Below, in pieces: positions 5,094-61,977 of a stretch of DNA of 64,000 nt (position 1 is its first letter; the number at the start of each line of letters is the position of its first letter). The position numbers and the translations under genes are program-made. The notes below the pieces were generated by a model. It did not search any database and had not been told where the DNA came from. It saw nothing but the letters and a program-made list of their open reading frames with translations. The DNA is from Ligustrum vulgare (taxonomy: Eukaryota; Streptophyta; Magnoliopsida; Lamiales; Oleaceae). The DNA is taken from the NCBI GenBank assembly GCA_963555705.1, contig OY743170.1, positions 14,547,096 to 14,611,095 of the forward strand, written 5' to 3'.

Positions 5094-5121
5094 TTTCGTG
5101 CAACGCGCGGGTAAAAACTAG
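5094..5121 (+). mobile_element. Helitron 3' terminus
   Basis: The block reads TTCGTGCAACGCGCGGG and ends ACTAG followed by T. This is the hairpin-plus-CTAG|T pattern of the better preserved Helitron ends at 11571-11601 and 17930-17950. No matching TC 5' end was found upstream, so the element length is unknown. The MutY relic could lie inside it. Confidence 0.6.
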
Positions 5122-5125
5122 TTAA

Positions 5126-5445
5126 TGTAAGGTCTTTTATGCATAGATATCAGGTCATTATTCCCAATTCCATGATGAGACGAATTAGATTAACATGAAA
5201 TTCAGTATATAAAGTCGGTTATGGTCCTTAAATCACATGTACTGTTCATTATGTTCAGACATCCCATCATTAGAGAAAAAATAAGGACTACGTGTTAATT
5301 TGGAAGATTCAACCGCCATAATCGATTACCGTGAACCACCTTTGATTAAGGTATGCTTTCGTTTCAGTTATTGAATCTTGATAATTCCATTATGATGATT
5401 TTGGATTATAGATAAAAAATTATCCATGTAATAAATCTTCTAACA
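5126..5445 (+). mobile_element. Shortened solo LTR related to the copia element at 42-46.6 kb
   Basis: It starts TGTAAGG and ends CTTCTAACA. Between them it follows the LTRs at 41972-42424 and 46124-46578 read on the minus strand; shared stretches include GATATCAGGTCATTA, CAGTATATAAAGTC and CATCCCATCAT. It is 320 bp against 453-455 bp, mainly through a deletion near the start, and is strongly diverged. No target duplication is visible. Confidence 0.7.
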
Positions 5446-9676: not shown

Positions 9677-9814
9677 GTTTAATACTCATTATTCAAAACC
9701 TCATTTCCATCCATACATTCTACCAATAAAATAATTTAAACATAAACTAAAACATATTCTGTAATTTTTAACCACACGTTTTTCAAATATTTACTATTAC
9801 AAAGCACATTTATA

Positions 9815-9932
9815 TCTATACTATATATAAAGGGAGGATAGTTGATTAATGTGAATGCAAAGTGGATTAATGTGAATGCAAAGTGAATTAGTGTGAATGC
9901 AAAATCTAGATAGATATGAATGCATTTATTAC

Positions 9933-9977
<45 letters not shown>

Positions 9978-10104
9978 TATTTTATGATAAATACCAAACA
10001 ATAGTTAATAATTTTTAATTTTAATAATTGTGCAAAGATTTGCAAAGATTATATGATATAATAACTTCTTGATTTTTAATGTTGTTCAATTGTCGTATCT
10101 ATAA
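9815..10104 (+). mobile_element. Helitron unit B0 (5' part only)
   Basis: It starts A|TCTATACTATATATAAAGG and carries three GTGAATGCAAARTG-type units, then a (TA)n tract. It is cut at 10104 where the next unit begins. It preserves an uninterrupted copy of AATTTTTAATTTTAATAA, the empty site for the Helitron inserted in unit B2. Confidence 0.7.
9937..9974. repeat. (TA)n microsatellite
   Basis: About 18 TA units inside Helitron unit B0. Confidence 0.95.
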
Positions 10105-11601: not shown

Positions 11602-11729
11602 TTATATATAAAGGGAGAATAGTGGATTAGTGTGAATGTAAAATCTGGATAGATGTAAATGTATTTATTGCCTTTTCTCTCTCTATATATATGCAAAATA
11701 ATGGTTAATATTTTTTTAACAATTTTTAA

Positions 11730-12347
11730 TCTATACATATATAATAATAGGATAATCGTCATCAAATTTCCCACCTATTTTCACCTGTCATTTTAGGAAA
11801 TTCTTATTTTTATCAATTGATTTTAATACATGAATTATGAAAGTTCAATTAATACATGTAGTAAATGATTCATAGATTTGTGCAAAAAAAAAATAATCTA
11901 TAAAAAGTCAAATTATATATTATTTTTTTCTTTTGATAATTATTGCATTATTTTGAAGTCGAAAAATATGCAATATGGGTGTCAACTCCAAAATCTCAAC
12001 GAGAAGTTTAATAAAAGATAAGAAATGAGAGCAAATTCTAAATATATCATTAGTAAAATCGTCTTAAATATTAAATGAAAAAATTTTACTTATATTTTTA
12101 CTTTTTTCAACCTCCAATCTCTTTAATTTATCTCATTTAAATCTTAAAATGATAGGTATCATTTCTTACCTAAATTCAATTTGACCTAAATGATTAATTT
12201 TGAATCTTTTTCTTATCAAATTGATATAAATAATAGATATTCGATCTTTTTAAATAAACTCAAATAAATAATTTAATTTTCTACAACTTTAGGTTCCGAT
12301 AAACTCATTGGTTCAATTTGTAAAATAGAAGGTATTAGAAAAACCAT

Positions 12348-12428
<81 letters not shown>

Positions 12429-13954
12429 GAAGAACCATCACCATTTTACGCGCATAGTTTCCTGCCTATTTTCATATGTCATTTTAGGAAATTTATTATT
12501 TTTATCAATTTATTTTAATACAAGAATTAAGAAAGTTCAATTAATGTATGTAGTAAATGATTCATGGATTTGTGCAAAAAATATATATATATTTATAAAA
12601 AGTCAAATTATAGATTTTTTTTTTTTTTGATAATTATTACATTATTTTGAAGTCAAAAAATATGCAATAAGGGTGTCAAATCCAAGATCTGAACGAAAAA
12701 TTTAATACAAGCTAATAAATGAGAGCAAACTCTAAACATATCATTTGTAAAATCGTCTTAAATACTAAATGTAAAAGTTTTATTATACTTTTATTTTTTC
12801 CAACATCCAATCCTTTTAATTTATTATTACATTTAAATCCTAAAATGATAGGAATCATTCCTTACATAAATTCAATTTGACCTAAATGATTAATTTTGAA
12901 TATTTTCTTATCAAATTGATAGAAATAATAGATATTTGATCTTTTTAAATAAACTTAATTAAATCATTTGATTTTCTATAACTTTAGGTTTCGATAAACT
13001 CATTGATTCAATTTTTAAAATAGAAGATACTAGCAGAATGATTCAATTTAAAAATAGAATGTGGTCAACACGTTTATTTAATATGCACAAAAATAGTATA
13101 TGCAACTGTGAAAAATGAGTTTGTAAGAATATGTGGTTGAGAATTAACATTGAAAAAAATTATTTTTGTAGAATCAATTTTATATGAATAAGTGATAAAG
13201 TCTTAGGTCTTGTGGATTAAATCCTCTTTTATAAATTAAGATGTATAAATGATTTTTTTTTTTATATAAAGTTAATTATATTTGTAATATTTATTCAATA
13301 AAATTTAATTAAAATTTGTATTTCATATTATTTATTTGTTACATTCATTTAAATACAGAATTGCATATAAGTTTATCAAGTGTAAGTTTAACATATTGCA
13401 ACATTTAATTTAAATTTGAGCGATTTTTTTTATTTTTTTAAATGTTAGGTAAATTTTAGTCGTAATGTATTTTTTTTTTTTAAATGTAATGAAATGAAAT
13501 ATTTGTTTAATATATTTAAATATCAATTATTGCATTAAGATAGTTAGTACAAATTCTTATAGTGTTATATGGTGATTCGATAAATTAATTCTGTAAATGT
13601 CTGTTAGCCTCTTTAATTCATTTTATTTTATAATTTGAAAATTGTAAACATTTCAACTTTTAAAAATCAAATAACTATAAGCTCGACTTCAGTCGTCAAA
13701 TCAATATTGTAAAATACAAAATAAGTCACATGTCTGTATCGACTTCGCCTAAATAGAATAAGAAAACTGAAGAATGGATAATTAGCTGTGAAAAGAAATA
13801 TGCAAGCCGAAATTTTATGTTTTACTTTTTTGGGTATTTTTCATTATATATGAATGTACAATTCATGTCGGCCATTGTATTTAATTTTACAATTTATATT
13901 AAATAAATAATTGTCAATTACATGTTTGGTACATCGCACGGGTTCGATTACTAG
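11730..13954 (+). mobile_element. Helitron inserted in unit B2
   Basis: It starts A|TCTATACATATATAATAAT and ends ACATCGCACGGG then ATTACTAG|T. Removing it restores AATTTTTAA|TTTTAATAATTG, exactly the uninterrupted sequence in unit B0 near 10003-10026, which shows the A|T insertion typical of Helitrons. Inside, about 600 bp is repeated directly with a 691-bp offset (11740-12340 against 12430-13030). It has no ORF and is non-autonomous. Confidence 0.85.
12349..12429. repeat. (TAA)n microsatellite
   Basis: About 26 ATA/TAA units at the junction between the two direct repeats of the inserted Helitron. Confidence 0.95.
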
Positions 13955-14283
13955 TTTTAATAATTGTGCATAGATTATATGATATAATAATTTATTGATC
14001 TTCAATGTTATTCAATTATCGTATATTTGATGAGTTAAGATTAAAAACATATTTATAGTTTATTGTGATTTTTTTACGAAAATTGAGAAAAAGTTAAGGC
14101 CATGTTTACTTTGCTGTTTTTAGCTCATTTTGAGTTTTCGATTTTCGGAAATATCGAAAATACGTTCACTTTGCCTATTTTCAGAAATTTGTTTTCTAAA
14201 AAAGAATACAAAGGAAACTCAAAACGGGTTTATTGCGTTTTGAATATTTTGTGTTAAAAAGTCCAAAAGGCGCGTTTTGGATT

Positions 14284-14745
14284 TTTTTTTTTTTTTTTGG
14301 AAATGTGAGACTCTTCCTTCACTTGAAACTCTTATGTTATTTTACCATTATATATAGATCCATTTTAAGATTTTTTTTTTTTTAATTATAAATGTGAAAC
14401 ACTTCCTTCACTTGAAGATCTTATGTTATTTTGTCATTATATATAGATCCATGTTAAGAATTTTTTTTTTTTTTTTTTGGTTGTAAATATGAGACACTTT
14501 CTTCACTTGAAGTTCTTATGTTATTTTGCTATTATATATCCATGTTAAATTTTTTTTTTTTTTTTGTAAATGTGAGACACTTCATTTACTTGAAGTTCTT
14601 ATGTTTTTTGCAATTATATATAGATCCATGTTAAGATTTTATTTATTTATTTATTTATTTATTTGTAAATGTGAGATACTTCCTTCACTTGAAGGTTTTA
14701 TGTTATTTGCAATTATATATAGATCCAAGTTAAAATTTTGTTGGT
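14284..14745. repeat. About 95-bp tandem repeat, five copies
   Basis: Each unit is a T-rich run, then AAATGTGAGAC, TTCACTTGAAG, TCTTATGTTATTTT and ATATATAGATCCATGTTAAG. It lies wholly inside the Tourist-like element. Confidence 0.85.
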
Positions 14746-15037
14746 ATGGGGTTAAATTTTTATTTAGCTGAAGCAATATTAATGATGAATTTATTGACAT
14801 TAAAATTAATGTAATTCAATAAATCAACCATTTTTTACATATAAAATATCCCAAACTAAATATATCAAAAAATTATAAAGTAAACGCATTTTTCAGTTTT
14901 CCATTTTTGAAAACAATTTTCCAAAATCTCAAAGATAATATATTTTGAGCAATCCCAAAACAAACAACCAAAATCCAAAATTCAAAACAAAATCCAAAAC
15001 TCAAAATTCAAAATCGAAATACAAAGAGAACGGCCCC

Positions 15038-15904
15038 TAGGGGTGGGCATCGGGTGGTTCGGTTCGGGTATCTCAAGAATCGGAATCGGACCATACTTTT
15101 TCGGTTCTTGTAAAATGGAACCATTCGGTTCCATTGAATCGCAAGAACCAAACCAGAACCAAATCATTCGATTTTGGTTCGATTTCGGTTCTACAATAAT
15201 AATTATTTTCGAGAGCTTATCGTGGAGTATCAGACATCGAGAAGTGAACCAATAACCTAAAATAAACATCTACCAAATATACCAAGATCAAGGATTTCGA
15301 AAATCCTTTCATCCCGAAAAAAGTATAGGATTCTTCATGAAATAGAAGATATTCATACCAAAATATGAAATAAATGGCCTATAAGTTTTTTCGAACATGG
15401 CAATATAGTAAAATTGTGGGATGAGTCATGAATTTTAAATGTATTATTATTAATTGTTTTACATTTATATTTAAATATTTAATTAACTTAATCGTGGTCA
15501 TTTACAACTTCACTTATTAATAAGTTAGTCTCATTCGATTTTCATTTACTAAGAATTTCAGTCAAAGTGTGAAGTTAAAAGTTACAACGAGGTAGAGACG
15601 TAACAAATTTCATAAAAAGAAATTAATCATTTTCACTTTACCCAAAAAAATTACAAATTCTTTTGATTTTAAGTTTTAAGATAACCAATTAAAACTATAT
15701 AAAAAAAACACAAGAATCAAAAATCGGTTCTAACTTCGATTTTTCGGTTCTAAAAGCGGAACCGAGAACCGAACCGAAAATCAATCGGTTTTTGGTTCCA
15801 AAATCGTTTTAGTATTTTATTTTTTTAAAACCATATGATTCCGATTTTTTTCGGTTTCGGTTCCGGTTTGGTTGTATTGGTTCCGATTTTTTTGCCCACC
15901 CTTA
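15038..15904. mobile_element. Non-autonomous hAT element nested in the Tourist element
   Basis: Ends are TAGGGGTGGGCATC and GCCCACCCTTA. Internal motifs are CGGTTCGG, GAACCGAA and ATCGGTTTT. The flanking octamers are ACGGCCCC and ACAATCCC; five of eight bases agree and the others are transition-like, fitting an aged 8-bp target duplication. It has no transposase. It shares its terminal motif with the element at 21497-22055. Confidence 0.75.
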
Positions 15905-16214
15905 ACAATCCCTAAATATTTGAGGCAAATGCTGAAATTATAATAAATATATTTATATCTTGAATAAGCATCAATATTTGTAGTCATAATATTACATCTA
16001 ACATGATATACAATTAAAAAACTACAGAATTTGCATTTATCATTCAATGAAGTTTTCGATAATTTGGATTACTTATGTTATTTTTAAATTTTAATAATTG
16101 TTGTAATAAAAAATTATTTTTGTATATTTTGTATTCGTGTTGATTATGTATAATCATTAAATTTTATGAATGCTTATCTATATTGTGGATAATAATTTTA
16201 GTTCATCGCACTGG

Positions 16215-17950
16215 TGAATGTAAAGTGGATTAATGTGAATGCAAAATCTGGATAGACGTAAATGCATTTATTGCCTTTTCTACACATACACACACACACA
16301 ATAAACAATGGTTAATATTTTTTTAACAATGATTATATGATATAATAATTTCTTGATCTTCAATGTTATTCAATTGTCGTATATTTGATGAGTTAAGATT
16401 AAATACATATTTATAGTTTATTGTGATTTTTGAATGAAAATTGAGAAAAAGTTAAATATTTGAGACAAATGCTGAAATTATAATTAATATATTTATATCT
16501 TGAACAAGTATCAATATTTGTACTCATAATATTATATCTAACATGATATACAGTTAAAAAACTACAGAATTTGCATTTATCATTCAATGAAGTTTTCGAT
16601 AATTTGGATTATTTGTGTTATTTTTAAATTTTAATAATTGTTGTAATAAATTTTTTTTGTATCTTTTGAATTTGCGTTGATTATGTATAATCATTAAATT
16701 TTATGAATGCTTATCTATATTGCGGATATTAATTTCAGTTCATCGCACTAGTGGAAATCTATATTGTTTATAAAGGTAAGATAGTTTGGTAAAATTTAAT
16801 TATTAAATTCTTTATATTTTAGTATTATACTAAATAATTAATATGATGTTATTTTTATTTGTTTATTTTGGTTATTATTATTTTTTTATTATTATTAAAA
16901 TTAATATTGAATGAGTTCAATCAATATTTTTAGTTATCCGTGTTAAAATTATTATTTAATTATTTTTATTTATTTGTTGTTCTTAATATTATAAATCATA
17001 TGTGTAGCCATCAATAATTAAATTGTATTTTAATTATTAATGGTTAAATAATTTGTTATCTTTAATATTACAAATCATATTTTCAAATATATATTATATA
17101 TATTATTATTAAACATTTTAATAAATTAAGCATTTGTTCAACAACTATTTTGAGGTAAAATGTGTAGTTGAAAAAATAGTTTTGAAAAAATATGTGGTTA
17201 AAAATGAGTTGAAAAAATGTGCTACTTATAAATAAGAAAAAGTTATTGAACGAAGGTTAATATTGAAGAGTTAATGCTTTGATTTTTTTAGTTAATAATA
17301 TTAATAGAATGACTAATATTTTTTAATCATTCTTAATGTTAATAATTTTTTAAAGATTATAGGGTATAATTTTCAGTCGTAATCTCCAACTTTACTCGAT
17401 TGTCGTATCATGATGATCGCGAGATTTTCAAAATTATTATTTTGACTACTTATATTTGTAAATAAAGTTTTATTGGTTAAATTTAAATATTTTGACTATT
17501 TCTTTTTTAATTATTGTAATTGACATTTTTTAATGAAAATTAAAAGTACGTTAAAAACAAGAGACAGATGTAAAAGTTATGAGAAATATGTTAAAACCTT
17601 TCACATGCACCAATATTCGTACATATAATATTACATCAAATATGATATACCATTAAAAAACTACTAAATTTATATTTTCAATAAAATTATTAATAATTCA
17701 TAAAAATTATTGAAATCAATAATAATTTATTATTTAAATATATAAATTGACGTTTACTATTCAAATAATTTTTTAATAGTTTGAATTATTTATGTTATTT
17801 TTTAAATTCTAATAATTATTGTAATAGAGAATTCTTTTTTATGCACTTATATATGTGTTGATTATGTATAAGTACTAAAATTTTACGAATACTTATTGAA
17901 ATCGATATTGTGAATAATGACTTTCGTGTATCGTACGGGTGAAATGCTAG
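16215..17950 (+). mobile_element. Composite Helitron (B3 + C2), 5'-truncated
   Basis: It begins with GAATGTAAAGTGGATTAATG and lacks the TCTATAC start. The C part begins at 16758 (TCTATATTGTTTATAAAGG), and the element ends TTCGTGTATCGTACGGGTG then ATGCTAG|T at 17950. Its body matches B1 + C1 throughout, with an extra AT-rich stretch near 16790-17110. It is non-autonomous. A short (CA)n run lies at 16283-16301. Confidence 0.75.
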
Positions 17951-18317
17951 TTATATTGAAAATAATGGATCTCAAACAAGGAGCAAACCATGTGCTCTCG
18001 TTGTTCCCATTAGTTTTCATTTTTCTAGTTGTTTGTGGCTAGGCAATAAAAATAAATCCTAAAGATCAAAATCCCCTATTGGGAAATAGTCAATGTAGTT
18101 GTTGTCAATGAAATTACCTAGCAATATCCTCCAATGATACGTGTCCATTCAAATTTGTTGAAGCAACCGCGTCCCCTTTTATCTCAACCCAATTACTCGT
18201 CTAAACCCTCACAAAATCACGCTTTCCGCGTCCTATTTCTGCTACACTACGGCACCGTTTTTACAAAAATTCAACCTTTCCCATTCCAAGTTTCAACACT
18301 AACACGCACCATTTCCC
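17951..18317. other. Upstream region of the NHL gene
   Basis: Less repetitive than the DNA to its left and lies directly upstream of the TATA box. It probably holds the promoter. The ORF at 18134-18337 crosses the TATA box and is not credible. Confidence 0.5.
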
Positions 18318-18399: not shown

Positions 18400-19107
18400 A
18401 TGGGAGAAACCAGGCAGCCACATCTTAACGGAGCCTATTACGGCCCTTCAATTCCGCCGCCGTCCAAGTCTTACCACCGCCCAGGCCGCGGCGGTGGTGG
18501 CTGCTGCTGCAACCCCTTCAGCTGCTGCTGTAGTTGCATAGCGAATTGTATTTGTACCTGCATATGCCAAATCTTGTTCACTATTCTCGTCATTGTTGGT
18601 ATAATTGTTTTGGTATGCTGGCTTATTTTCCGCCCCAACGTCCCCAAGTTCTACACCACTGATGCCTCTCTGACGGAATTCAATTACAATAACAACACGC
18701 TACGCTACAATTTGGCGCTCAATTTGACGATCCGAAACCCTAACAAGCGAATTGGAATTTACTATGATCGGATCGAAGCAAGGGCCTCGTATGAAGGCCA
18801 GAGATTAAATAGTGTTATGTTGCAACCGTTTTATCAAGGCCATAAAAATACCACTTCGTTGAGGGCGGAATTCAGAGGGGTTGCTCCACTCGGAAATAGA
18901 GAGGTTTCGAACTATAATAATGACAGAGACGCTGGTAGTTATGATATTGAAGTAATGCTTTACCTGCGGATTAGGCTGAAATTCGGATTTGTGAAATCGA
19001 CAAGAGTGAAGCCGAATATCGAGTGCGATTTGAGGATTCCTCTAAATTCCAACGGCACATCATCTGGGACTTACGAATCGAAACGTTGCGATTTCGATTG
19101 GCGTTGA
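18400..19107 (+). CDS. NDR1/HIN1-like (NHL) LEA-2 membrane protein
   Basis: An intact, intron-free 235-residue protein of the NHL family, usually plasma-membrane proteins linked to pathogen response, senescence or membrane-wall contact. The cytosolic N terminus is proline/glycine-rich and then cysteine-rich (about 35-55, CCC and CCCSC clusters that could be palmitoylated). One membrane helix spans about 57-77, followed by RPNVPKF (78-84). The extracellular LEA-2 domain (about 100-212) carries the family motif NPNKRIGIYY (113-122) and a YQGHKNTT block (145-152). N-glycosylation sequons include NLT 108, NTT 150 and NGT 218. Length and architecture fit NHL2/NHL3/NHL10-type members. The start is the first in-frame ATG after a TATA box. 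It is the only intact host gene in the window. The precise subfamily is unresolved. Confidence 0.95.
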   Translation: MGETRQPHLNGAYYGPSIPPPSKSYHRPGRGGGGCCCNPFSCCCSCIANCICTCICQILFTILVIVGIIVLVCWLIFRPNVPKFYTTDASLTEFNYNNNTLRYNLALNLTIRNPNKRIGIYYDRIEARASYEGQRLNSVMLQPFYQGHKNTTSLRAEFRGVAPLGNREVSNYNNDRDAGSYDIEVMLYLRIRLKFGFVKSTRVKPNIECDLRIPLNSNGTSSGTYESKRCDFDWR

Positions 19108-41515: not shown

Positions 41516-41971
41516 ATCTATAACATTCACTAACTTTAGTAGTTTCCAAAGCATCATATATACAACTTTTTTACCTTCAAGAGAGCATTCAGATTATGAT
41601 CCGAACTTTTCATATCCAACTTATGTTGCTCTTTCCAATTGGTCTAGCCATTGGTTCTCCTCGTCTTATCTTTTGATTTTGAGAAAATGTATGCCTCGAC
41701 TTTTATGTTTTTCCGTGATGGCTTCTCTTACTCATAGGAGTCTTCATCATTATATTCATTATCAGTTTGTTCAGGCCATGAACCGCTCGTATGGTTTTCA
41801 AATGTCACAATAGGTGGTAAAGCTGAAGACAGTGGTGTGGTGTCGACTCCTTCAGATTTGATATTAAAGATAACACATCTTTCTTGGAGTTGCTCCATTT
41901 AGATAGGCTGTCGACCCTACAGTGATGGGAAAGAGTAACGAACATGATAAGGCTACAAACAAAGGATCCTT

Positions 41972-42424
41972 TGTTAGAAAAATTATATTACAGATAATAT
42001 TTATCTATGATCTCAAATATCATCATGCTGAATTATCAAGAATGAAATAACTGAAGCGAAAGTGTACCTTAATCAAACATGATTCACGATTAACGATTTT
42101 ACGGTTGGATCTTCCAAATCAATACGTAGTCCTTATTTTCTCTGATGATGGGATGTCAAAGAGAATGAACAGTACGTATGATTTAGGGACCATAACTGAC
42201 TTTATATACTGAATTGCCAGTTAACCTAATTCAGCTCATCATGAATTAGGTAATGACCTGATATCTACACATGAAAGTCCATACATTAATTAGATGCATT
42301 AAAGCCTGATATATATAAAATCCTCATTAGATCACTTTAATTGGGCTTAACCAAATTTGATATCATTTTATTCAATACACAATAATTCACATATAAGCCC
42401 ACACGATTGATTAAAATCCTTACA
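41972..42424 (-). repeat. 3' LTR of the 42-46.6 kb copia element
   Basis: On the minus strand it runs TGTAAGGATTTTAATC to TTTTTCTAACA. The polypurine tract lies at 42425-42435. Confidence 0.93.
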
Positions 42425-46121: not shown

Positions 46122-46123
46122 CT

Positions 46124-46578
46124 TGTTAGAAAAATTATATCACAGATAATATTTATCTATGATCTCAAATATCATCATGCTGAATTATCAAGAATGAAAT
46201 AACTGAAGCGGAAGCGTACCTTAATCAAACATGATTCACGATTAACGATTTTACGGTTGGATCTTTCAAGTTAATACGTAATCCTTATTTTCTCTCTGAT
46301 GATGGGATGTCAAAAAGAATGAATAGTACGTATGATTCAGGGACCATAACCGATTTTATATACTGAATTGTCAGTTAACCTAATTCGGCCCATCATAAAT
46401 TAGGTAATGGCCTGATATCTACACATGAAAGCCCATACATTAATTAGATGCATTAAAACCCGATATATATAAAATCCTTATTTGATCACTTTAATTGGGC
46501 TTAACCAAATTTAATAGCATTTTATTCAATACACAATAATTCACTTATAAGCCCACACGATTGATTAAAATCCTTACA
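46124..46578 (-). repeat. 5' LTR of the 42-46.6 kb copia element
   Basis: 455 bp, collinear with 41972-42424, with an extra CT in a CTCTCTCT run. Confidence 0.93.
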
Positions 46579-48632
46579 TCCTTTTGTTGGACAATTTTAT
46601 ATCGAAGGATCAGATTTACCTGTCGGCATATCGCAGTGTGTTTAAAGTATGTTCACAGGATCCTGAGTTAGGTGTAATGAATGGTATCATTACAGTACAA
46701 GGATTTCCAACAAATTAATCCCTCAAAACTTAAGTTAATTTACTGCCTCTAAATGGAATGTGGCCTTGATCGTTGTCAAGTGCTCTCATACACTCCTTCA
46801 ATGCAAGCAATCTATATTGATCTCGGCTTCTTCCATTCTGCACAACATCATGCGGGGTTATAAAAATAAACAGATGGACACAGTCAATAGAATATACATC
46901 TTGAAAACCAAAAGGTTGTTGACAGCATGCATCCAGATACACAATATACATGCCTTTTTGTCTTACCAGATATCTATTTTAAACAGATGACAGAGAGCTT
47001 CCCCTACAACGAAGGGAATGAAAATGATCCATATGTACCTTGTTTGGTTATCGTTATCAGTAGTGTTTGCACCGCGATCACTTCCAGCAAGGTTTATGAA
47101 ACAGAGCTTGCCAACAACTCTTGTGGGTTTGGGTTCACTACCATCAACTGACCTCTTAATAGTAAGCTGAAGAATAGCGTGTGATCGGGACGACTCCTCA
47201 TTTGCACCAATGGTGCATGTACTTCTAGTCGCATTACCTTTTTCAACGAGTTCCTTAATTGTCTCCACATCTGATACTTTGTAATCTTGCAAGCCCAAAA
47301 TACAAACTTGCTGTTTATCGTCCTCTCTCATGCAAAGTTTCCTGAAGAACAGAAGTTCTAAATATCATGAAATTTCAAATATAATATGGCAGTGTCGAAC
47401 AGATATAAAGAGAAAAATAATGCAACGACTTACTTCCTATCACTGAGTAGATCAAAGAGTTTTCCTCCGTATATCTCAAAGAAGCTGGAGAATAATTGAA
47501 ACCCTTGGTTCCTGTAAGTATGGTGAATAAGTCGGAAAATATCCCTAGATGCTTTAAGGGGCAGTGTTTCATAGAATACGTTTTGCCACTTCTTGAATAA
47601 GTTTCCAGGATGCAAGTGGAAAAGAAAATATAAAGGTAAGCGAAATCTCATTAATTAGTGATAAATAAATGAGTAAAAAATGAGATGCGTGATCTCAAAA
47701 GGGACATAAAACTAAAATTCAATCAACTAGAAGAAGATACAATCACAAAATGAGAAGAGCACTTTGTATAATTTAGTTGAATTAACAATTTAATTCCTAT
47801 CATCCTAGAAGCAAGGAGAAAAAGGATAAATGTCAATGAAATTAGGAGGTCTATAAAAACACGTCTAGTATCAACGTATCATTAAGAAAGAAAATGATGC
47901 TTAGAAATGAAAAAAAAAAAAAAAAAAAAAAATCATAATAATAAATCTGAGCAACTGCTTCAATTATAAAGAAATGGGATGATAAACATAATGGCTGGGC
48001 AAGGAAATTCATCTCTCTGTGATTTTAGCATTACGAATTGGAATAATATTTACATAAAATTACTTCTCCAACATGCCATTGATCCTATCACAAAAATGAT
48101 GCCTTTTTCATGACATCCTAGCAATAGGACTGATTGCTTAAATTTGTTCAAGTGGGTAAAGAAGTAGAGAAAATTCATTCAATTAATCTTTTCTGTGTCT
48201 CTTATTGATACCATAGTAACTAGGAGACCAAACACCAAGAAAGAAATCTTGTTAGAATGTCACAGTAGAGTTTGTTTTAGCAATAAAATTCCAAAGTAAA
48301 TGGAGAAGGATCTGTAATTTAAATTATTACATCTGAACTACTAGTTATTTATAAACTTCCATTTTGCGCAAATCAACTAATTGAGCATTTCTACAATCAT
48401 GAAAGACTTCCAATAACTGAATTAGGTAAAAATAGGGCAAAAGCCACAAAACTTCGAAAAAAAAGTTAAATAGAAGAAACAATGCTAAAATGCCAATTTC
48501 CTAAGCCTTGATATAACCAAATCCATCTCAGGTTAAGCCATTACCTACTTTCCCATAAGCAAAGCAAGTTGCTTTGGTGCGTTGGAGAATTATTGGAACA
48601 TTTGTAACGAGTAAACTAATTGATCTCCATTG

Positions 48633-50996: not shown

Positions 50997-52108
50997 CATA
51001 GAGAGAGAGAGAGAAGAGAGAGTGTGATATATATATATAATTTGATTTTTTTTGCCTCTTGGGTCCTCAAGTTTTAAAACTAATTATTTTGATCCCAAAT
51101 CATGTTTTAAAATGTATCAAGTCCAGCCTTAAGTTTTAAACTTATTATTTAGGTCCCAGATTATCTTAAGCAGCATTTTAAATGAGTCCCTTAATTTTTG
51201 AAAAAAACTCTATTTTAGTCCTCAGATTTTAAAATCATTCATTATAAATCCAAGCTTTAGATTTATTTCAAAACTTTAATTTTATTTCAAACTTTGAATT
51301 TCTAGAAACTAATTTAAATTTTATTTTATTTTACCTAGACAAGACGTACGGAGATCTAGAGAACTAAAATATATTTTCCCGCTCAACCACACTAGTAGAG
51401 AATTGAGGTAGACTCGCCCCCATTAATTTGTTTATATTTTAATTGCACGTTATATGCTTCGTGTGACTTATGTGCATTATTTGCATAAGATGAGACGAGA
51501 ATTTATATTTCTTATGAAATATTAGTGTTATGAGCATGCCATAACTTATATGCATTTTAAATGCATGAGACGAGACGAGATTATGATTTTGTTATGCTTT
51601 GACATAACTTATGTGCATTTATTGCATGAGACGAGACTACCCACACCCTATGTTACGAAAGCCTATTATTATGATGAAGTTGTCACTATATGATTGCATG
51701 TTTATGTGTTCAATTTTTATGTAAATTTATTAATCAGCGATGAGTCTACTGAGTATTTCAATGAAATGCTCACCCATTTTTAACAACAATTGCAGATATC
51801 GGATATGGAGGCGAATGATGCGCAGGATGTGGTATTAATATTTGAATAAGTAGATTGCATTATTATTTCAGTTGAATAATCGCATTTTGAGAAATGTTGA
51901 GATTTTGAACGGTTTGCTTTATTTGGAAATGTTTTAGCAAATATTATTTCCGTAAATTGGTGAATATTTAAAGTTTGTCAATTTTTGAATTTATTTAAAT
52001 AAATCTTTCCAATTAGAAATGTTATTTTATTCCGCATAATATTATTTCAAAAAAATTAAACGTCTCGATGACGTGACGAGTCGGGCAATTAGAACCCGGG
52101 GCGTCACA
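49815..52108 (+). mobile_element. 2.3-kb solo LTR, gypsy-like
   Basis: It starts TGTAGCGATCGTGAAATTTC and ends CCCGGGGCGTCACA, flanked by identical GTATC (49810-49814, 52109-52113). There is no primer site, coding region or second LTR, so it is a solo LTR left by recombination. The orientation is inferred from the TG..CA polarity and the GGGGCGTCACA end common in plant gypsy LTRs. It contains a GC-rich section (about 50230-50940), a (CT)n tract and a TATATATATATAA near 51029. Confidence 0.88.
50942..51024. repeat. (CT)n followed by (GA)n
   Basis: About 26 CT units and, after six bases, a broken GA run, together a self-complementary tract within the solo LTR. The ORFs rich in serine/leucine or arginine/glutamate here are artefacts of it. 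Confidence 0.95.
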
Positions 52109-53284
52109 GTATCTATCATCATGCATATTTAAAGGGTCACTAGTACAAAAAATCCAAAAAAAAAAAAACAAATTAGCGCCTGTAAAAAATGCGGTGGCAA
52201 ATTTGTAAATAAGTTTTTACCAAAGGCGTCGGTTGTTTTCTGACAACCGACGCCAATTGAATGGCCCAAGTATGGGCGTCGGTTCTTACATAAGAACCAA
52301 CGCCTATGCTTCAGTTATAGGCGCCGGTTCTTTGAAGGAACTGACGCTTTTTGATAAAAGGCGTCGGTTCTTATGTAAGAACTGACGCCCATACTTCGCG
52401 TTATATTCCACGCTTCAATCAATTTTTCAGAAACTCTCTTTCCCCAAATCGGCTGCTCACCCTAGCTCTATTCTCACGTTGTCGGGCGCCACCATCCGGC
52501 GAACTCACCAACACACATCACAAATCTGACCGGCAACCACCTTCATAGCACCTCCAAACTCGACCGCCACAGCCCCTGCGCACCACCAGCCCCGCGCGCC
52601 ACCACCTTCTGCGAGCCACCCCACCTCAGCGTGCCACCCAGCCCAGCCCGCCACCAACACTATCCCCACCGTACCCAGCTAGCCACCACCACCCACCCCA
52701 CAAGGTCCACCACTTCAAATTTTAAATTATTTGTATGTTTTGCGAATTTGGCAAAGTAAACTTTCCAATAACTTCAGATTTACTCTTTCATTTACTTCTT
52801 TGAACAGGGCCGGTGGGTTTACAGTAACCTCCCTATAGACAAATTCATTACTCTCAAAGTCAAAAGTCTCACAACCACTCTATAGGTACAATGAAATTTT
52901 TTTAGTCATTGAAGTTAGATTCTTTATTTGATGTCCTCGATGTCGAACTTTTCTTTTTATTTTTATAGCTTATTATAGTGAGCTGATTATCTAATGAGTT
53001 TGATGTCACTCTTGTTTACTTGTTTCAATGGCATCTGAATATATAACTTGTTATCTTTCTTGCTTTTTTTGATACTTGAGTTTAATATTGTGATTAATAT
53101 ATTTATGCTTATTCTATATTTATAATCTATAACTGTATAAACAATGTTTTGAGGCTAATTAATTATTAGATAAATGTTTTAGGGGTCATTGAATTGCAAG
53201 ATGAATATTTTAGGGCTCATTAAATTATAAGCTTAGCCAGGGAAGTATAAGAATTTTCCATGTTAATGACTTTATGTATTGCAG

Positions 53285-53847
53285 GAGTATGCTGACATGC
53301 TGAAGATCAAGATGCATTTTTTAAAGATGATGCCGAAGCCCATGCTAAACTCATCAACCTTGGAGCAAAACTTGAGCCTCCTGAGTTTTTTCTTTCATTA
53401 CTCAACTTATAATAGGTCTCATTTGCTGTATTATTTTGAGCCTAATTATAGGTTGCAGGATTTATCGAATTTGGATACGCTCATTAAGCTGATAATACCA
53501 CTTTCCTCAAAACTACATTTTCACAAATATTTCAAAATTATTTCTATATTTGCTCAAACATTCATTTACCTATCTATGTTTTCTCCCCATTAAATTTTCA
53601 AATCTAACTACTTTAATTTAGTTCCCCCTGATTTAAAATATTTTTCTCTGATCCATATATTTTGGTCACCTTGACTATAGAGTATATGAAGGTTTTCTCA
53701 TTATCTATGTTGTGTTTCACCTATCATTTGGAAAATTACATCAAACAAATGTCTTGTTTACTTTTCTGGACAGGATTTCTCATTAGATGATGGTTCCCAC
53801 GATCTCAACCAGAAAAGTTTGTGGCAGTCAAATATTCAAAAGGAAAG
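53285..53847 (+). pseudogene. APX: Captured chloroplast-type ascorbate peroxidase exons
   Basis: Ascorbate peroxidase reduces hydrogen peroxide with ascorbate. Exon 1 follows TTGCAG at 53281-53284 and, after an 8-base tandem duplication (CATGCTGA) that shifts the frame, reads [17 protein letters not shown] and [10 protein letters not shown]. This is the end of the catalytic domain of stromal/thylakoid forms. Exon 2, after GGACAG at 53768-53773, reads FSLDDGSHDLNQ and, one frame over, KFVAVKYSKGK, the segment joining the catalytic domain to the chloroplast C terminus. The heme-binding part is absent. The assignment is from memory of the family, without alignment. Confidence 0.72.
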
Positions 53848-54017
53848 TCTATAATTGTTAGTTGCTTATACACTACCAAATATGGAATGAGCGAAATTGC
53901 ATATTTTTTGTCCCAGTAAAAGTTCTAAATAAAAGATCACATTAATGCACTTCTTTATTTTATTTCATGTTTCACTATAATGGAGATTTTATTTATTTAT
54001 TTTTTGTGCTGTTTTAG

Positions 54018-54274
54018 GGAAAACAACATTTGTAAAGAGGTATCTCACTGGTAGAAGAAATATGAGCGTAAGCCTGCTTGATAAGTTATGCTTCAATATG
54101 ATATTTTCTCAGCCTCCTTTTTCTTTTCTTAATTAACTATTTTTATATGGGTATAGCAACCATTGGTGTGGAAGTTCATCCCTTGGATTTCTTCACAAAC
54201 TATGGAATGATCGAGTTTTATTGTTGGGACACAGCTGGTAAGGTGAAATTTGGTGGCCTCAGGGATGGATATTA
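54018..54274 (+). pseudogene. RAN: Captured Ran GTPase exons
   Basis: Ran drives nucleocytoplasmic transport. Exon a (54018-54067, after TTTTAG, before GTAAGC) encodes the P-loop end and helix 1: KTTFVKR.LTG in canonical form, here with a 1-base loss and a 7-base loss. Exon b (54157-54274, after GTATAG, before GTAAGT) reads [16 protein letters not shown], then FYCWDTAG and KFGGLRDGY. The catalytic glutamine after DTAG is lysine here. Introns are kept, so capture was from genomic DNA. The first and last exons are missing. Confidence 0.92.
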
Positions 54275-54884
54275 GTAAGTAACATTTACTAAGATGTGAC
54301 AAAACTGTTAAATGTTATTTTCAATTAGGTTAGGAACTTTGCATTCTCTTTCATATTTTCCAAGGATGAGCTAAGTTATTGGTTTTCTTCCTCAATGTTT
54401 ACACATTTTATACTGAACGTTATCGAATCTAGTTTTACGTGATTGCATTGGCAAGTTTTATTGCATATTAATCAATCTAATTTTTATATATTTTCACGTT
54501 ATCTGCGAGTCGATTTGAAATGTTCAGCTGCTTCTGTTTTATATAATTTTTTGATGTGTACATGATTGTTATAGTTTATATAGGTATATAAGGGAAATAT
54601 AAATAAACGAAAAAAAAAAAATTAGTAAAAGGCGTCGGTTGTTATTCAAAAATCGACGCCTTAAGCTTTTTAAAGGCGTCGGTTGTTAACAACCGACGCC
54701 TTTAGTTGAGATAAGGCGTCGGTTGTTACTTAACAACCGACGCCTTTAATGAACTTAAGGCGTCGGTTTACAACCGACGCCTTAAGTATGCACTTTTAGC
54801 GTCGCTACTAAAGGCGTCTCCTGTACAACCGACGTCTTTTCTGCTTTACAACCGACGCCTTTAACTCTTAATGTACTAGTGGGT

Positions 54885-56667
54885 GTTTTTCCTCTCCCAT
54901 CCCACATAACTTTCGATGTGGGAAGGAAACTCTGTATTTTTTTTTTTTTTTTTATTTCTTTTTTAGTTAAATGTTAACTTAATTGTGTAATTGTTAAAGA
55001 CGGTCACCATGTTGACTGTTTAAAAAAAAAGTTGTTATAATATTTTGCTTATTTTATTAAAATTAATAATTCTAAAATGTAAAAAATAATGTTAGTATGA
55101 TATTTTATATTGTATTTTCATTTGATTTTTATGTAAAATTTTATTTAATGTTTTAAAAATAATTAAATAAGTAAATGTTATTTTATTTGTAAAATAACTT
55201 ATTTTATAGAAAAAATTTTAATTTTTGGAATAATTATTAATTTTTTAATTGATACCATTTTGACCCTTGACCAGTTACATTTTTCGAGTCGAACTGATTT
55301 CCAATTTTCTGAACACTGATATTTACATAAAACTCTTGCTAAGTATATTAGGTTAACCAAGATTCTGAAAAATAAATAAAATTTGTGGTGCCCATAAATC
55401 AACCTCGCGACTGCGTTGTGTATTGTTAATGCAATATGCAGCCAAGGAAAGCGATTTTCCTTCTTTTCGGCTTCTAAAAGTTGGTCTTCATTTAATTGCA
55501 CGCTCAATCCTTCAAGTTTCTGTCTTATTCAGTTGTGTCCTTATAATTTGACTTTCATTTCAATTTGACCTCTTTTTTATTTGCAGCTCAAGTCCTTCAG
55601 TTTTTTAAAGTTTGCACTTTAATCCCCACTTTGTCCTTTTTGTATGTTTCCACCAGAAAGGAAAGAAGGTGAGAGGGGAGCCTCTACCATGAAAAGAATA
55701 GGTTTATATTAATTCGATTTCAGTCTATTTTTTTCGTTTTATCTTCAATTGCATCTAAAATTGAGTTTTTCCTAAAACAAACAAAATCATCAACACATAA
55801 TTTAGTAGTATCACATCCTAAAATACTTATGATTATCTAAATCTAAGGTCAAGATAAGTACGAAAAAAACATACTTGTCATTGACATTTTGCGCAACATA
55901 GTTGGATAGGAAAAAAGAATGTAGACAAGAGTTTAATCAAATCCTCTTTTCCTCCGAAACCCCTTGTCTTTTTTAAAGCCAAAATATATGTTTAATTTAG
56001 TGTCACGCCAATATAATCATCTTTTGTCGATTCTAAAGTAAACACATCTTTTTTAAGGTTTAAAGACAGATTATTTATCTATGTTTATTTTACTTTAGTT
56101 CACTTTGAAAGTTTTCTTATTCTTCAACTTTACAATTTTTTTTTTTTTTTTTTTCCTTTTCTGGATAGGAATGCTTGATTACTAAAATCAAAGTGAGAAA
56201 AAGCTTTTTCTTTCACAAAACACATCACAAAGCATGAAAAGTAGTGCTTATTTTTGTTATTTCTTAGAGAAGATTTTTTGTTTTTTTTTTTTTTTTTGTT
56301 TTTTTTTTGACGTTCTATAGCCCAAAAAAAAGGTTGTTCTTCCTTTGCGCAACCATTACGTTATGGATCAAATTCATACATTAATCATCTTCCTATAAAA
56401 TAATTATTTAGGGGAATAATTATACAACGATAAATTCTCATTCCCAACCAAGTTAGAACATGAAATATTTTAAACGATATAAAGATGAAAATTAAACTGG
56501 TTTTTATAGCTAATAGTTTGAATAAAAGCTATTTTTGGATGAGGATGCTTTTTCATAAAAATTACGCAAACAATGTAGAGATGAAATATATTTTATGTGG
56601 CTAGGTCTAAAGGACTCTTTATTTGTTTCTTCTATGGGAGAGGATGAAGTGCATCTTTAACTATTTT
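54885..56667. other. Noncoding, scattered transposon debris
   Basis: Around 55260-55317 on the minus strand a stretch (CAGTGTTCAGAAAATTGGA, GGTCAAGGGTCAAAAT) matches one end of the family-3 hAT MITEs; the other end is not found. 55500-55640 has repeated TCCTTCAAGTT/TCCTTCAGTT phrases like retroelement leaders. Long T-runs lie at 56130-56155 and 56280-56310. No gene is supported. Confidence 0.4.
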
Positions 56668-56819: not shown

Positions 56820-56901
56820 TTCACTTGCTCTTTCAAAGATTCAGTCAAAGATAATGGAAGGAGTTTAATTAACATTCGTTTTCCGTCACGAAGGAGGTAA
56901 C

Positions 56902-57422
56902 TGTGGAAAATAAAGACATTTTTGTTGAATTTGGTAAGCCACCATTAGCCAACAATTTAGTCTATGTTCACACCTATTTGGTAAGTCACCATTAGCCTAC
57001 AATCTAATCTATGTTCACACCTATTTTTCTTCCATCCATTGTTGATTTTTTGTCCAAACTTTCCCTATAAATAGAGGGCAAAACCTCAATGGAAAATGCA
57101 CCAAGTAGAGAGGAAGATAGAGAGTGAAAGTAGTAGAGAGACATTTGTGAGTAGTGAGAAATATTAGAGAGAAATAAATTATTTTCTCCTAAGTATTTTC
57201 CTACCTTGTTTTCTCCTATTACAAGAGAGGTTAAATATTGTTATCTCCTTGTATTTAGAGAGAAGGTTATTGTAATTCTCCTACTATAGTGAAATCCTCC
57301 TATACTTGCCCGTGGACGTAGCCATTATTGGTGAACCACGTAAATACTTGTGTTCCATTATTACCGCATTTTCTCAATTCCACTATACTTGCTGACCAAC
57401 GCGATCCACGCCTTTCCTAACA
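56902..57422 (+). repeat. 5' LTR of the young copia element
   Basis: TGTGGAAAAT to CCTTTCCTAACA. It contains a diverged direct repeat of about 52 bp (TTGGTAAGYCACCATTAGCC.. near 56935 and 56983), a TATAAATA box at 57066-57073 and GAGAG-rich leader DNA. Confidence 0.97.
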
Positions 57423-57424
57423 AG

Positions 57425-57436
57425 TGGTATCAGAGC
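57425..57436 (+). other. Primer binding site
   Basis: TGGTATCAGAGC, complementary to initiator tRNA-Met, two bases after the LTR. Confidence 0.95.
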
Positions 57437-57580
57437 CTGGTTACATCTTTTGAAATTCTTAGTATGCTCTGTGGTTGCAGCTTTGTCTGATCTTCCACAT
57501 CAGAAAATATTTCTTGAGATTGTTTTGCGTAGGGTTGGTGTTCACTATCACTCGGTATTATTACCAAGTCGTGAACAAAA

Positions 57581-57850
57581 ATGGCAGCAAAGTATGAGGT
57601 TGAAAAGTTCAATGGGAACAATTTCTCGTTATGGAAAATGAGAATAAAAGCAGTTTTGAGAAAAGATAACTGTTTGGCGGCAATTGGAGAGAGACCCGCG
57701 GATATCACTGACGATGGCAAGTGGAACGAGATGGTTAGCAATGCAATTGCTAATCTGCACTTAGCACTAGATGATGGAGTCAACTACAGTGACAGACCAC
57801 ATCAACACCCTCAACACTCTATTTTCACAGCTCACATCAATGGGCCATAA
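57581..57850 (+). pseudogene. Copia gag 5' part, frameshifted by deletion
   Basis: Gag normally forms the virus-like particle. This frame starts MAAKYEVEKFNGNNFSLWKM, the usual start of this gag family, and continues to NLHLALDDG. There the family's next segment, roughly 45 residues by memory, is missing, and the following gag sequence (ESTTVTDHINTLNTLF) lies in another frame. The join falls in a GATGATGGA microhomology near 57768-57776, so a small deletion by end joining or template switching is likely. The codons after the join are out-of-frame and end at 57850. No programmed frameshift is known at this place in copia elements. Confidence 0.88.
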
Positions 57851-60800
57851 AATAGAGGTAGGCGAACGTGCTGAAATTCTACTTCAAAGTCTACCAGATT
57901 CGTATGATCAACTCATCATCAACTTAACTAACAACATAGAAGATCTAGTCTTCGATGATATTGCAGCTGCGGTTCTTGAAGAGGAAAGTCGGCGCAAGAA
58001 CAAGGAGGACAGACTATCTAGTTCACAGCAGGCGGAAGCTTTGACGATGATGAGAGGGAGATCAACGGAACGTGGCCCCAGTGGGAGTCATACCCAAGGT
58101 AGATCTAAATCCAGAAGTAAGAAGAATGCCAAGTGTCATTACTGTGGCAAGAAAGGGCACTTAAAAAGGGATTGTTGGAGTCTTAAGAGGAATGAAGAAG
58201 CCAAAGGGAAGGCACATGAGATACCAAAAGCTCAGGGTTGTGTAGCAAGCACCTCATATGATGGCGAAATTTTATACAGCGAGGCAACGATTGTTGTTGA
58301 AGGCAGAAAACATTTCACCGATGTCTGGCTCATCGATTCAGGAGCGACATGGCACATGACACCAAGGAGAGAATGGTTCCATCAATATGAACACATCTCG
58401 GGAGGTTCAGTGTTTATGGGAAATGATCATGCTTTGGAGATCGTTGGTATTGGTACTATCAAATTAAAAATGTATGATGGTACAATTTGCACTATCAAGG
58501 AGGTTCGACACGTAAAGGGCTTGAAGAAAAATCTATTGTCTTTGGGACAACTAGATAGCATTGGGTGCAAAACTCATGTTCAAGATGGGACTATGAAAAT
58601 AGTCAAAGGCGCGCTTGTAGTGATGAAAGCAGAAAAGATAGCTGCAAATCTGTACATGCTTAAAGGAGATACTCTACAAGAAGGAGAAGCATCTGTTGCA
58701 TCGGCAGGTTCAGCAGAAGAATTAACAATGATGTGGCACCGCAAACTTGGCCACATGTCTGAACGTGGTTTGAAAATTCTCTCTGAACAAGATCTTCTTC
58801 TAGGGCTCAAAAAGGTATCATTACCCTTTTGTGAGCATTGTGTCACTAGTAAGCAGCACAGATTGAAGTTTAGCACTTCTACTACTAGAAGTAAAGCTAT
58901 CTTGGAGTTGGTTCATTCTGATGTTTGGCAAGCACCGGTTATGTCCCTAGGAGGTGCAAAATATTTTGTATCTTTTATTGATGATTACTCCAGGAGATGT
59001 TGGGTGTATCCAATCAAGAAGAAGGCTGATGTGTTCGAAGTCTTCAAAATCTACAAAGCGTGGGTAGAACTTGAATCTGAGAAGAAGATCAAGTGTTTGA
59101 GGACGGACAATGGAGGAGAATATACTGGTAATGAATTTAATATTTTTTGTCAACAAGAAGGTATTAAAAGACATTTCACGACGGCATATACTCCACAACA
59201 AAATGGAGTGGCAGAGCGGATGAACAGAACATTGTTAGAAAGAACGAGAGCAATGTTGAGAACTGCAGGGTTAGCTAAATCATTTTGGGCTGAAGCAGTC
59301 AAAACCGCCTGTTATGTGATCAACCGGTCACCATCAACCGCGATTGATCTGAAGACGCCAATGGAGATGTGGTCAGGGAAGCCAATTGATTATTCTCACT
59401 TACATGTCTTTGGAAGTCCTGTGTACGTTATGTACAATGCCCAGGAAACATCAAAGCTGGATTCAAAATCCAGAAAATGCATTTTCTTGGGGTATGCTGA
59501 TGGAATCAAGGGGTACCGCCTGTGGGATCCCACTGCCCACAAGGTGATAATCAGCAGAGACGTGATATTCACGGAAGGCAAGGTACAAGAAAATGATAGC
59601 ACTTTAAAAGAGCCAGAAACTACTGCGGTTGAAGTTGAAGTTGAAAATAGAGAAGAACAAGAAGTCCGGGATTCTTCTGAAGCAGCACCGGAGCATGAAG
59701 AAGGAGAACAAGCTGAGTTTACAGTTCCTGAAATCAGACGATCAACTCGGGAGAGGAAAGAACCAGCTTGGCACTCTGAGTACATTATGGAGAGCAATGT
59801 TACATATTGTCTACTGACGGAGGATGGAGAGCCATCAACTTTCCATGAGGCTTTAAATAGCCAAGAAGTTTCGCAGTGGATGGAAGCTATGCAGGAAGAA
59901 ATTGAGGCTCTTCATAAAAACAAGACATGGGATCTTGTTTCGCTACCACAAGGAAGGAAAGCCATTGGAAATAAATGGGTCTACAAGATCAAACGTGATG
60001 GAAATGACCAAGTGGAGCGGTATCGTGCTAGACTGGTGGTAAAGGGATATGCTCATAAAGAAGGCATTGACTTCAACGAAATATTCTCTCCTGTTGTTCG
60101 ACTCACGACAGTTCGAGTATTATTGGCGACGTGTGCTACATTAGACTTGCACCTGGAGCAGTTAGATGTGAAAACTGCATTTCTTCATGGTGAGCTTGAA
60201 GAAGAAATTTATATGCTCCAACCAGAAGGTTTTGAAGAAAAAGGAAAAGAGAACTTGGTTTGCAGGTTGAACAAATCTCTATACGGTCTCAAACAGGCGC
60301 CGAGGTGTTGGTATAAGAGATTTGATTCCTTCATCATGAGCCTTGGATACAACAGACTTAGTGCAGATCCTTGTGCTTATTGCAAGAGATTTGGTGATGG
60401 TAATTTCATTATCTTGCTGTTGTATGTTGACGACATGTTGGTAGCAGGCCCCAACAAAGATTGTCTCAAAGATTTGAAGGCACAGTTGGCTAGGGAGTTT
60501 GAAATGAAGGACTTGGGAGCCGCAAACAAGATTCTAGGGATGCAAATTCACCGAGACAGAAATAATAGGAAGATTTGGCTTAGTCAGAAGAACTACTTGA
60601 AGAAAATCTTGCGACGCTTCAATATGCAAGATTGTAAGCCAATTTCTACCCCTCTTCCTATTAATTTCAAGTTATCCTCAAGTATGAGTCCTAGCAGTGA
60701 AGCGGAGAGGATGGAGATGTCTCGAGTACCGTATGCATCAGCAGTGGGTAGCCTAATGTTTGCTATGATTTGTACAAGACCAGACATTGCACAAGCAGTG

Positions 60801-61388
60801 GGAGCGGTCAGCCGATATATGGCAAATCCTGGTAGAGAGCATTGGAATATGGTGAAGAGGATCCTAAGATATGTCAAGGGTACCTCAAATGTTGCATTAT
60901 GCTATGGAGGATCAGAATTTAATGTTAGAGGCTATGTAGATTCAGATTATGCAGGTGATCCTGATAAAAGCAAGTCCACCACTGGATATGTGTTTACTCT
61001 TGCTGGAGGAGCTGTAAGCTGGGGTTCAAAACTGCAGTCTATCGTGGCTACTTCTACGACGGAAGCAGAATATGTGGCGGCTACACAAGCTAGCAAAGAG
61101 GCAATATGGTTGCAAATGTTAATGGAAGAACTCGGACACAAACAAGAGAAGATTTCTCTATTTTGTGATAGTCAGAGTGCTTTGCACTTAGCAAAGAATC
61201 CAGCATTTCATCCAAGGATGAAACATATTAGAGTACAATATCACTTTGTACGAGAGAAGGTGGAAGAAGGAAGTGTGGATATCCAGAAGATTCATACGGA
61301 GGACAACCTAGCGGATATATTCACAAAGCCGATCAACACTGATAAGTTCACATGGAGCCGATCCTCTATCGGCCTAGCAGAAGCATAA
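57771..61388 (+). CDS. Copia gag(3')-pol polyprotein, open frame
   Basis: 1,205 codons in one frame, in copia order. Gag C-terminal part at 1-120, zinc knuckle CHYCGKKGHLKRDC at 122-135, protease active site DSGA at 189-192, integrase zinc finger H323/H328/C354/C357, integrase triad D384, D446, E482 (spacing 61 and 35), reverse transcriptase about 720-960 with YVDD at D887-D888, and RNase H about 1050-1190 with D1057 and a TTEAEYVA block. All catalytic residues are intact. The ATG given is only the first in this frame; in the intact ancestor this frame would be fused to the gag start at 57581, from which it is now separated by the deletion. Expressed protein, if any, would need internal initiation. 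Confidence 0.93.
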   Translation: MMESTTVTDHINTLNTLFSQLTSMGHKIEVGERAEILLQSLPDSYDQLIINLTNNIEDLVFDDIAAAVLEEESRRKNKEDRLSSSQQAEALTMMRGRSTERGPSGSHTQGRSKSRSKKNAKCHYCGKKGHLKRDCWSLKRNEEAKGKAHEIPKAQGCVASTSYDGEILYSEATIVVEGRKHFTDVWLIDSGATWHMTPRREWFHQYEHISGGSVFMGNDHALEIVGIGTIKLKMYDGTICTIKEVRHVKGLKKNLLSLGQLDSIGCKTHVQDGTMKIVKGALVVMKAEKIAANLYMLKGDTLQEGEASVASAGSAEELTMMWHRKLGHMSERGLKILSEQDLLLGLKKVSLPFCEHCVTSKQHRLKFSTSTTRSKAILELVHSDVWQAPVMSLGGAKYFVSFIDDYSRRCWVYPIKKKADVFEVFKIYKAWVELESEKKIKCLRTDNGGEYTGNEFNIFCQQEGIKRHFTTAYTPQQNGVAERMNRTLLERTRAMLRTAGLAKSFWAEAVKTACYVINRSPSTAIDLKTPMEMWSGKPIDYSHLHVFGSPVYVMYNAQETSKLDSKSRKCIFLGYADGIKGYRLWDPTAHKVIISRDVIFTEGKVQENDSTLKEPETTAVEVEVENREEQEVRDSSEAAPEHEEGEQAEFTVPEIRRSTRERKEPAWHSEYIMESNVTYCLLTEDGEPSTFHEALNSQEVSQWMEAMQEEIEALHKNKTWDLVSLPQGRKAIGNKWVYKIKRDGNDQVERYRARLVVKGYAHKEGIDFNEIFSPVVRLTTVRVLLATCATLDLHLEQLDVKTAFLHGELEEEIYMLQPEGFEEKGKENLVCRLNKSLYGLKQAPRCWYKRFDSFIMSLGYNRLSADPCAYCKRFGDGNFIILLLYVDDMLVAGPNKDCLKDLKAQLAREFEMKDLGAANKILGMQIHRDRNNRKIWLSQKNYLKKILRRFNMQDCKPISTPLPINFKLSSSMSPSSEAERMEMSRVPYASAVGSLMFAMICTRPDIAQAVGAVSRYMANPGREHWNMVKRILRYVKGTSNVALCYGGSEFNVRGYVDSDYAGDPDKSKSTTGYVFTLAGGAVSWGSKLQSIVATSTTEAEYVAATQASKEAIWLQMLMEELGHKQEKISLFCDSQSALHLAKNPAFHPRMKHIRVQYHFVREKVEEGSVDIQKIHTEDNLADIFTKPINTDKFTWSRSSIGLAEA

Positions 61389-61444
61389 GCAGCATGAGAA
61401 TGGCAAGTGTGGGAAGGATGGCAGGTTACAACAAAAGTGACTTT

Positions 61445-61456
61445 AAGTGGGAGAAA
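61445..61456 (+). other. Polypurine tract
   Basis: AAGTGGGAGAAA directly before the 3' LTR primes plus-strand DNA synthesis. Confidence 0.93.
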
Positions 61457-61977
61457 TGTGGAAAATAAAGACATTTTTGTTGAATTTGGTAAGCCACCAT
61501 TAGCCAACAATTTAGTCTATGTTCACACCTATTTGGTAAGCCACCATTAGCCTACAATCTAATCTATGTTCACACCTATTTTTCTTCCATCCATTGTTGA
61601 TTTTTTGTCCAAACTTTCCCTATAAATAGAGGGCAAAATCTCAATGGAAAATGCACCAAGTAGAGAGGAAGATAGAGAGTGAAAGTAGTAGAGAGACATT
61701 TGTGAGTAGTGAGAAATATTAGAGAGAAATAAATTGTTTTCTCCTAAGTATTTTCCTACCTTGTTTTCTCCTATTACAAGAGAGGTTAAATATTGTTATC
61801 TCCTTGTATTTAGAGAGAAGGTTATTGTAATTCTCCTACTATAGTGAAATCCTCCTATACTTGCCCGTGGACGTAGCCATTATTGGTGAACCACGTAAAT
61901 ACTTGTGTTCCATTTTTACCGCATTTTCTCAATTCCACTATACTTGCTGACCAACGCGATCCACGCCTTTCCTAACA
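61457..61977 (+). repeat. 3' LTR of the young copia element
   Basis: 521 bp. It differs from the 5' LTR at four bases (three transitions, one transversion) and has no indels. TATAAATA lies at 61621-61628. Confidence 0.97.

Follow-up and report, generated by a model that had tools for sequence, protein, structure and literature searches.

Background

Two inverted repeats beginning with CACTA enclose, in the 64-kb stretch of Ligustrum vulgare DNA analysed here (the window), exon-like pieces of chloroplast ascorbate peroxidase (APX) and of the nuclear GTPase Ran. The locus raises the question of what kind of element this is, how parts of two host genes came to lie within it, and what could be expressed from it. 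A preliminary description had interpreted it as a CACTA element carrying exons of two unrelated genes, and the ends, 17 subterminal motifs and four exons support that interpretation. With high confidence, we regard it as a non-autonomous CACTA (En/Spm) element of the Pack-CACTA kind, in whose interior genomic DNA from two host genes has taken the place of the original sequence.

Element ends and subterminal repeats

The element spans positions 52138–54881 (2744 bp) of the window. A search for ends, combined with simulation, placed the 5' terminal inverted repeat, CACTAGTACA, at 52138–52147 (plus strand), and the 3' repeat, TGTACTAGTG (54872–54881, minus strand), is its exact reverse complement, so that the two match at 10 of 10 base pairs. 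The flanking sequence holds GGT both on the left (52135–52137) and on the right (54882–54884), a target site duplication of 3 bp such as membership of the CACTA (En/Spm) superfamily requires. The clear bounds and the GGT duplication described previously are thus borne out. The 64-kb window contains a single inward-facing pair of perfect 10-bp CACTA ends no more than 15 kb apart, whether or not a duplication is demanded, and no second copy with the same ends lies elsewhere in it. Because such a pair, matching 3-bp duplication included, also occurred in two of 200 windows simulated with a first-order Markov model, the ends by themselves are good, not overwhelming, evidence, and to this extent the ends and the exon matches described below might be thought coincidental.

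The subterminal regions settle the identity of the element. A scan of the 64 kb for AAGGCGTCGGTT-like motifs, tolerating up to two mismatches, found 17, all of them inside the element, against a chance mean of 1.53. Seven lie at the 5' end (52214–52396) and ten at the 3' end (54620–54865), and the motif scan and a repeat search show them arranged for the most part as inverted pairs. Direct and inverted subterminal repeats are therefore present at both ends, as the superfamily requires, and both arrays have strong RNA fold scores (z = -13.7 for 52215–52400 and z = -16.0 for 54620–54865). As plant DNA would predict, the element had no match in a plasmid collection (megablast), and the palindromic subterminal unit had no exact match in viral or genome contig collections. 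Three motif strings, searched in the open-access literature, gave apparently unrelated papers among the matches listed (titles and abstract openings).

The element is complete and has retained the cis-acting parts for movement, namely inverted ends and subterminal repeats. To judge from these parts, it would belong to a mobile family, and the transposase and a TNPA-like protein of an intact relative would bind the ends and subterminal repeats and move it in trans. Pack-CACTA elements have no internal transposase gene and carry host coding DNA between CACTA ends; here no transposase family of Pfam was found in the 11 reading frames of the element scanned, and the DNA between the ends includes APX and Ran exons.

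Captured exons of APX and Ran

The APX piece consists of two exons and a retained intron, all on the plus strand. Exon A (53285–53384), recognized by protein search, tblastn and splice borders, encodes part of the C-terminal region of a chloroplast-type APX and requires a change of frame near its start; the intron (53385–53773, 389 bp) runs from GT to AG; and exon B (53774–53846), recognized by a spliced protein match and splice borders, requires a change of frame in the middle. Exon A by itself, queried as the residues translated from 53296–53385, has chloroplastic ascorbate peroxidase 1IYN as its best match (E = 1.5e-6), other APX chains scoring E = 0.012 or weaker. When exons A and B are spliced, the match to 1IYN improves to E = 8.4e-15 and is gap-free through residues 240–294, and 1IYN is the sole chain below E = 0.001. 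The piece corresponds only to the C-terminal end of 1IYN. In a tblastn comparison of one Musa APX with the window, exon A was recovered and exon B was absent from the matches listed; Pfam gave no match on the APX frames.

The Ran piece follows in the same orientation and also has two exons, both recognized by protein search, tblastn and splice borders, around a retained intron. Exon C (54018–54067, plus strand) encodes KTTFVKRYLTG and has a small deletion past LTG, the intron (54068–54156, 89 bp, plus strand) runs from GTAAGC to TATAG, and the translation of exon D (54157–54274, plus strand) ends in GGLRDGY. Exon D alone matches GSP1/Ran with E = 4.9e-16, and the spliced exons C and D match it with E = 5.8e-22 in an alignment that skips two residues where the deletion lies. 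Two Ran proteins compared with the window by tblastn recovered exons C and D; beyond exons A, C and D, these two proteins and the Musa APX found nothing below E = 1 in the window. In the tblastn comparison, exon D and a Ran protein named from Abeliophyllum agree at 33 of 38 residues (86.8%). Pfam reported only Ras on the exon D frame, at 20.7 bits against a cut-off of 21.6 bits. The active site is altered from DTAGQEKF to DTAGKVKF, with loss of the Gln, which we take to be the catalytic residue.

These E-values (8.4e-15 and 5.8e-22), together with 17 subterminal motifs where 1.53 are expected, lead us to reject coincidence, in spite of the two of 200 simulated windows; its probability is vanishingly small. 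They also agree with the earlier claim of exons from two unrelated host genes in one orientation. The further claim, that intron borders are kept, holds with one qualification. All four exons have AG directly before them and GT directly after. According to the alignment, however, the donors of exons A and B appear to have their GT one base ahead of the expected exon end, and exons A and B are therefore out of frame when joined.

For both genes, spliced exons match better than single exons. Because removal of the introns lengthens the collinear alignment in APX and in Ran alike, these are true introns, and the captured DNA is of genomic origin. Retrocopying was considered and rejected, both introns being retained.

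Joining of the two gene pieces

The APX and Ran pieces are separated by 171 bp (53847–54017, plus strand) that, at its splice borders, opens with GT and closes with AG, and this stretch probably represents the remnants of one intron from each gene. Capture would have taken place at the DNA level, either in two steps or as a single capture of a stretch already joined, APX and Ran meeting in intron-like sequence. The single-uptake version has a wider form, in which APX and Ran had already been joined in the genome, as a pseudogene of patchwork make-up or as part of another transposon, before they were acquired in one event or had CACTA ends settle around them. The pieces do adjoin in the same orientation with only intron-like DNA between them, as this would have it. 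Little speaks against it beyond the repeat search, which gave no ends of a further element between the pieces, but we consider such prior joining rather unlikely. For the Pack-CACTA kind of capture that we prefer, the route would be either the one proposed for those elements, in which related elements are inserted in tandem and excised jointly (PMC8903248, in the part cited here; review PMC13317346, likewise in part), or faulty gap repair; the sequence may be compatible with either.

The protein searches as a whole fail to place either donor. A chimeric APX–Ran query had a Ran of Cucurbita as its best match (best 120 of 3932 matches), and the sole APX matches below E = 0.001, two of 39 candidates, were both from Musa. 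Since Ran is nearly invariant, the captured Ran does not place its donor.

GC-rich stretch and putative promoter

Directly behind the 5' subterminal repeats, at 52401–52755 (plus strand), sequence and GC profile suggest a putative promoter of the element followed by a GC-rich, possibly untranslated first exon. A TATA-like TTATATTC is located at 52401 and TCAG at 52427, and the GC-rich exon has candidate donors at 52704/52705 and 52755/52756. The GC content reaches 62–68% over 52501–52700, and 28 of the 35 hundred-base bins of the surrounding 51801–55300 have less than 40%. In maize Spm, the promoter adjoins the subterminal repeats, and the first exon downstream of it is GC-rich and untranslated; a literature search gave no account of this arrangement among the papers listed. 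We read the present stretch as an Spm-like leader because it lies directly behind the subterminal repeats and the TATA-like TTATATTC; position and composition are the grounds on which the putative promoter is assigned.

The preliminary description had noted a GC-rich, exon-like stretch of unknown origin. The stretch is indeed present, and a leader belonging to the element itself now seems a more likely origin for it than capture of a third gene. One frame is open for 97 codons, and coding first exons can be as rich in GC, so a third captured host exon has something in its favor. Against it, none of the three frames tried had a Pfam match; the protein search gave two of 39 candidates, both peroxidases, and found no homologue of the 97-codon frame at E = 0.001, among candidates of about 140–444 residues, a range that would miss shorter relatives; and the position, just past the subterminal repeats and preceded by a TATA-like site, is the one expected of an element leader. 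A third captured exon is accordingly a doubtful reading of this stretch.

Decay and coding potential

With the GC-rich stretch read as promoter and first exon of the element itself, transcription would proceed through the captured exons in the sense direction. Six hypothetical spliced RNAs, built with this assumed first exon and with the 3' end kept unspliced, have a longest ATG-started open reading frame (ORF) of 45 codons. The RNA of the element would be non-coding, since none of the six contains an ATG-started ORF of more than 45 codons. A working protein is very unlikely, to judge from the frameshifts, the Ran deletion, the lost Gln, the APX piece limited to the C-terminus and the short ORFs.

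A functional chimeric gene, making a protein or a regulatory RNA that acts on APX or Ran, must be weighed on the same evidence. The single orientation, the retained AG and GT borders and the possible promoter are what such a gene would have, and chimeric transcripts are known from Tgm-Express1 (PMC1947982) and a Tpn1 insertion (PMC5105172), as the cited parts of those reports describe. But the frameshifts, the deletion, the change from DTAGQEKF to DTAGKVKF and the limit of 45 codons all speak against it, as do the matches of the chimeric query: the best 120 of 3932 have Ras-family Pfam domains, and none of these 120 has a peroxidase domain. We regard a functional gene as highly improbable. A Ran-like protein of Linum, apparently covering 91% of the chimeric query, was examined as a possible APX–Ran fusion and rejected, its N-terminus being different.

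The chimeric transcripts or small RNAs proposed in the preliminary description are possible. A more elaborate proposal, which we consider quite improbable though less so than a functional gene, is that the element would serve as an exon-trapping cassette: its own promoter and GC-rich first exon would be spliced to any captured exons, giving a standing chimeric non-coding RNA and, from it, small RNAs directed at chloroplast APX and at Ran, with successive captures selected for sense orientation to the promoter.

Genomic surroundings

Immediately to the left of the element, a stretch at 52040–52109 ends in CCCGGGGCGTCACA, and may mark where a Ty3-type terminal repeat on the minus strand comes to an end. 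On the other side, 2 kb away, there is a young Copia-like retrotransposon (56899–61977), the two 524-bp repeats of which are 99.0% identical and enclose an open polyprotein frame of 1205 codons. Two direct repeats of about 455 bp (41971–42424 and 46123–46578), 94% identical and 4.15 kb apart, have an inverted and more distant copy (81–83% identical) at 5118–5445, and are possibly terminal repeats of a retroelement. A piece of a Kinesin motor domain lies on the minus strand at 46963–47364 (Pfam Kinesin, E = 1.3e-21), and a cluster of diverged multi-copy repeats occupies 9808–17956. A viral movement protein domain on the minus strand at 473–964 (Pfam MP, E = 5.3e-18) is probably a fragment of an integrated plant pararetrovirus. 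An intact NDR1/HIN1-like gene is located at 18400–19104; among the best 120 of 454 matches, its best named match is from Forsythia ovata (86% identity), the third by score is from Morella rubra (55%), the fourth and fifth are from Rehmannia (81%) and Sesamum (78%), and one further match has 88%. These matches would place the host probably in the Oleaceae or close to that family.

Comparison with known capturing elements

Pack-MULEs resemble the present element in that they contain gene pieces captured at the DNA level. They belong to another superfamily and have long inverted repeats and longer duplications than the element described here.

Within the CACTA superfamily, coding DNA, in many cases drawn from two or more loci, is likewise enclosed by non-autonomous CACTA ends in the Pack-CACTA (Pack-TYPE) elements of Arabidopsis, rice and maize. 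Their captured genes and hosts differ from ours, and the duplications given in the cited part of that report are of 5 nt, in contrast to 3 bp in the present element (PMC8903248). A 3-bp duplication is given for CACTA elements in the cited portion of a study of Chenopodium, where CACTAs also carry gene fragments (PMC8978399), and for soybean Tgmt* (PMC2613891, in part). Tgm-Express1 of soybean is a CACTA element in which exon and intron segments of several unrelated host genes are found with their splice sites retained; as far as the cited text goes, it holds five genes in 5.7 kb, compared with two genes in 2.7 kb here, and it is inserted in a known gene and gives many chimeric spliced transcripts, whereas the present element is known from its sequence (PMC1947982). 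In the Tpn1 family of Japanese morning glory, the ends and subterminal repeats are kept and the interior is captured genic DNA, but the cited section gives inverted ends of 28 bp and a putative autonomous relative, TpnA1, compared with ends of 10 bp here (PMC5105172).

Pack-CACTA, Tgm-Express1 and Tpn1, as characterized in those parts of the literature, share the design of the present element, which upholds the earlier statement that capture from several genes by one non-autonomous CACTA is already known in plants. No report of a CACTA element holding both APX and Ran was found among titles and abstract openings of the open-access papers that matched, and within that range the combination is new, as had been supposed. 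What is new here is the choice of captured genes and the host; the mechanism is already known. The Ligustrum element leaves current views unchanged, and provides a tidy, fully bounded capture of gene fragments by CACTA, with readable intron borders, that is one more case for asking with what frequency captured pieces sit sense to the element promoter.
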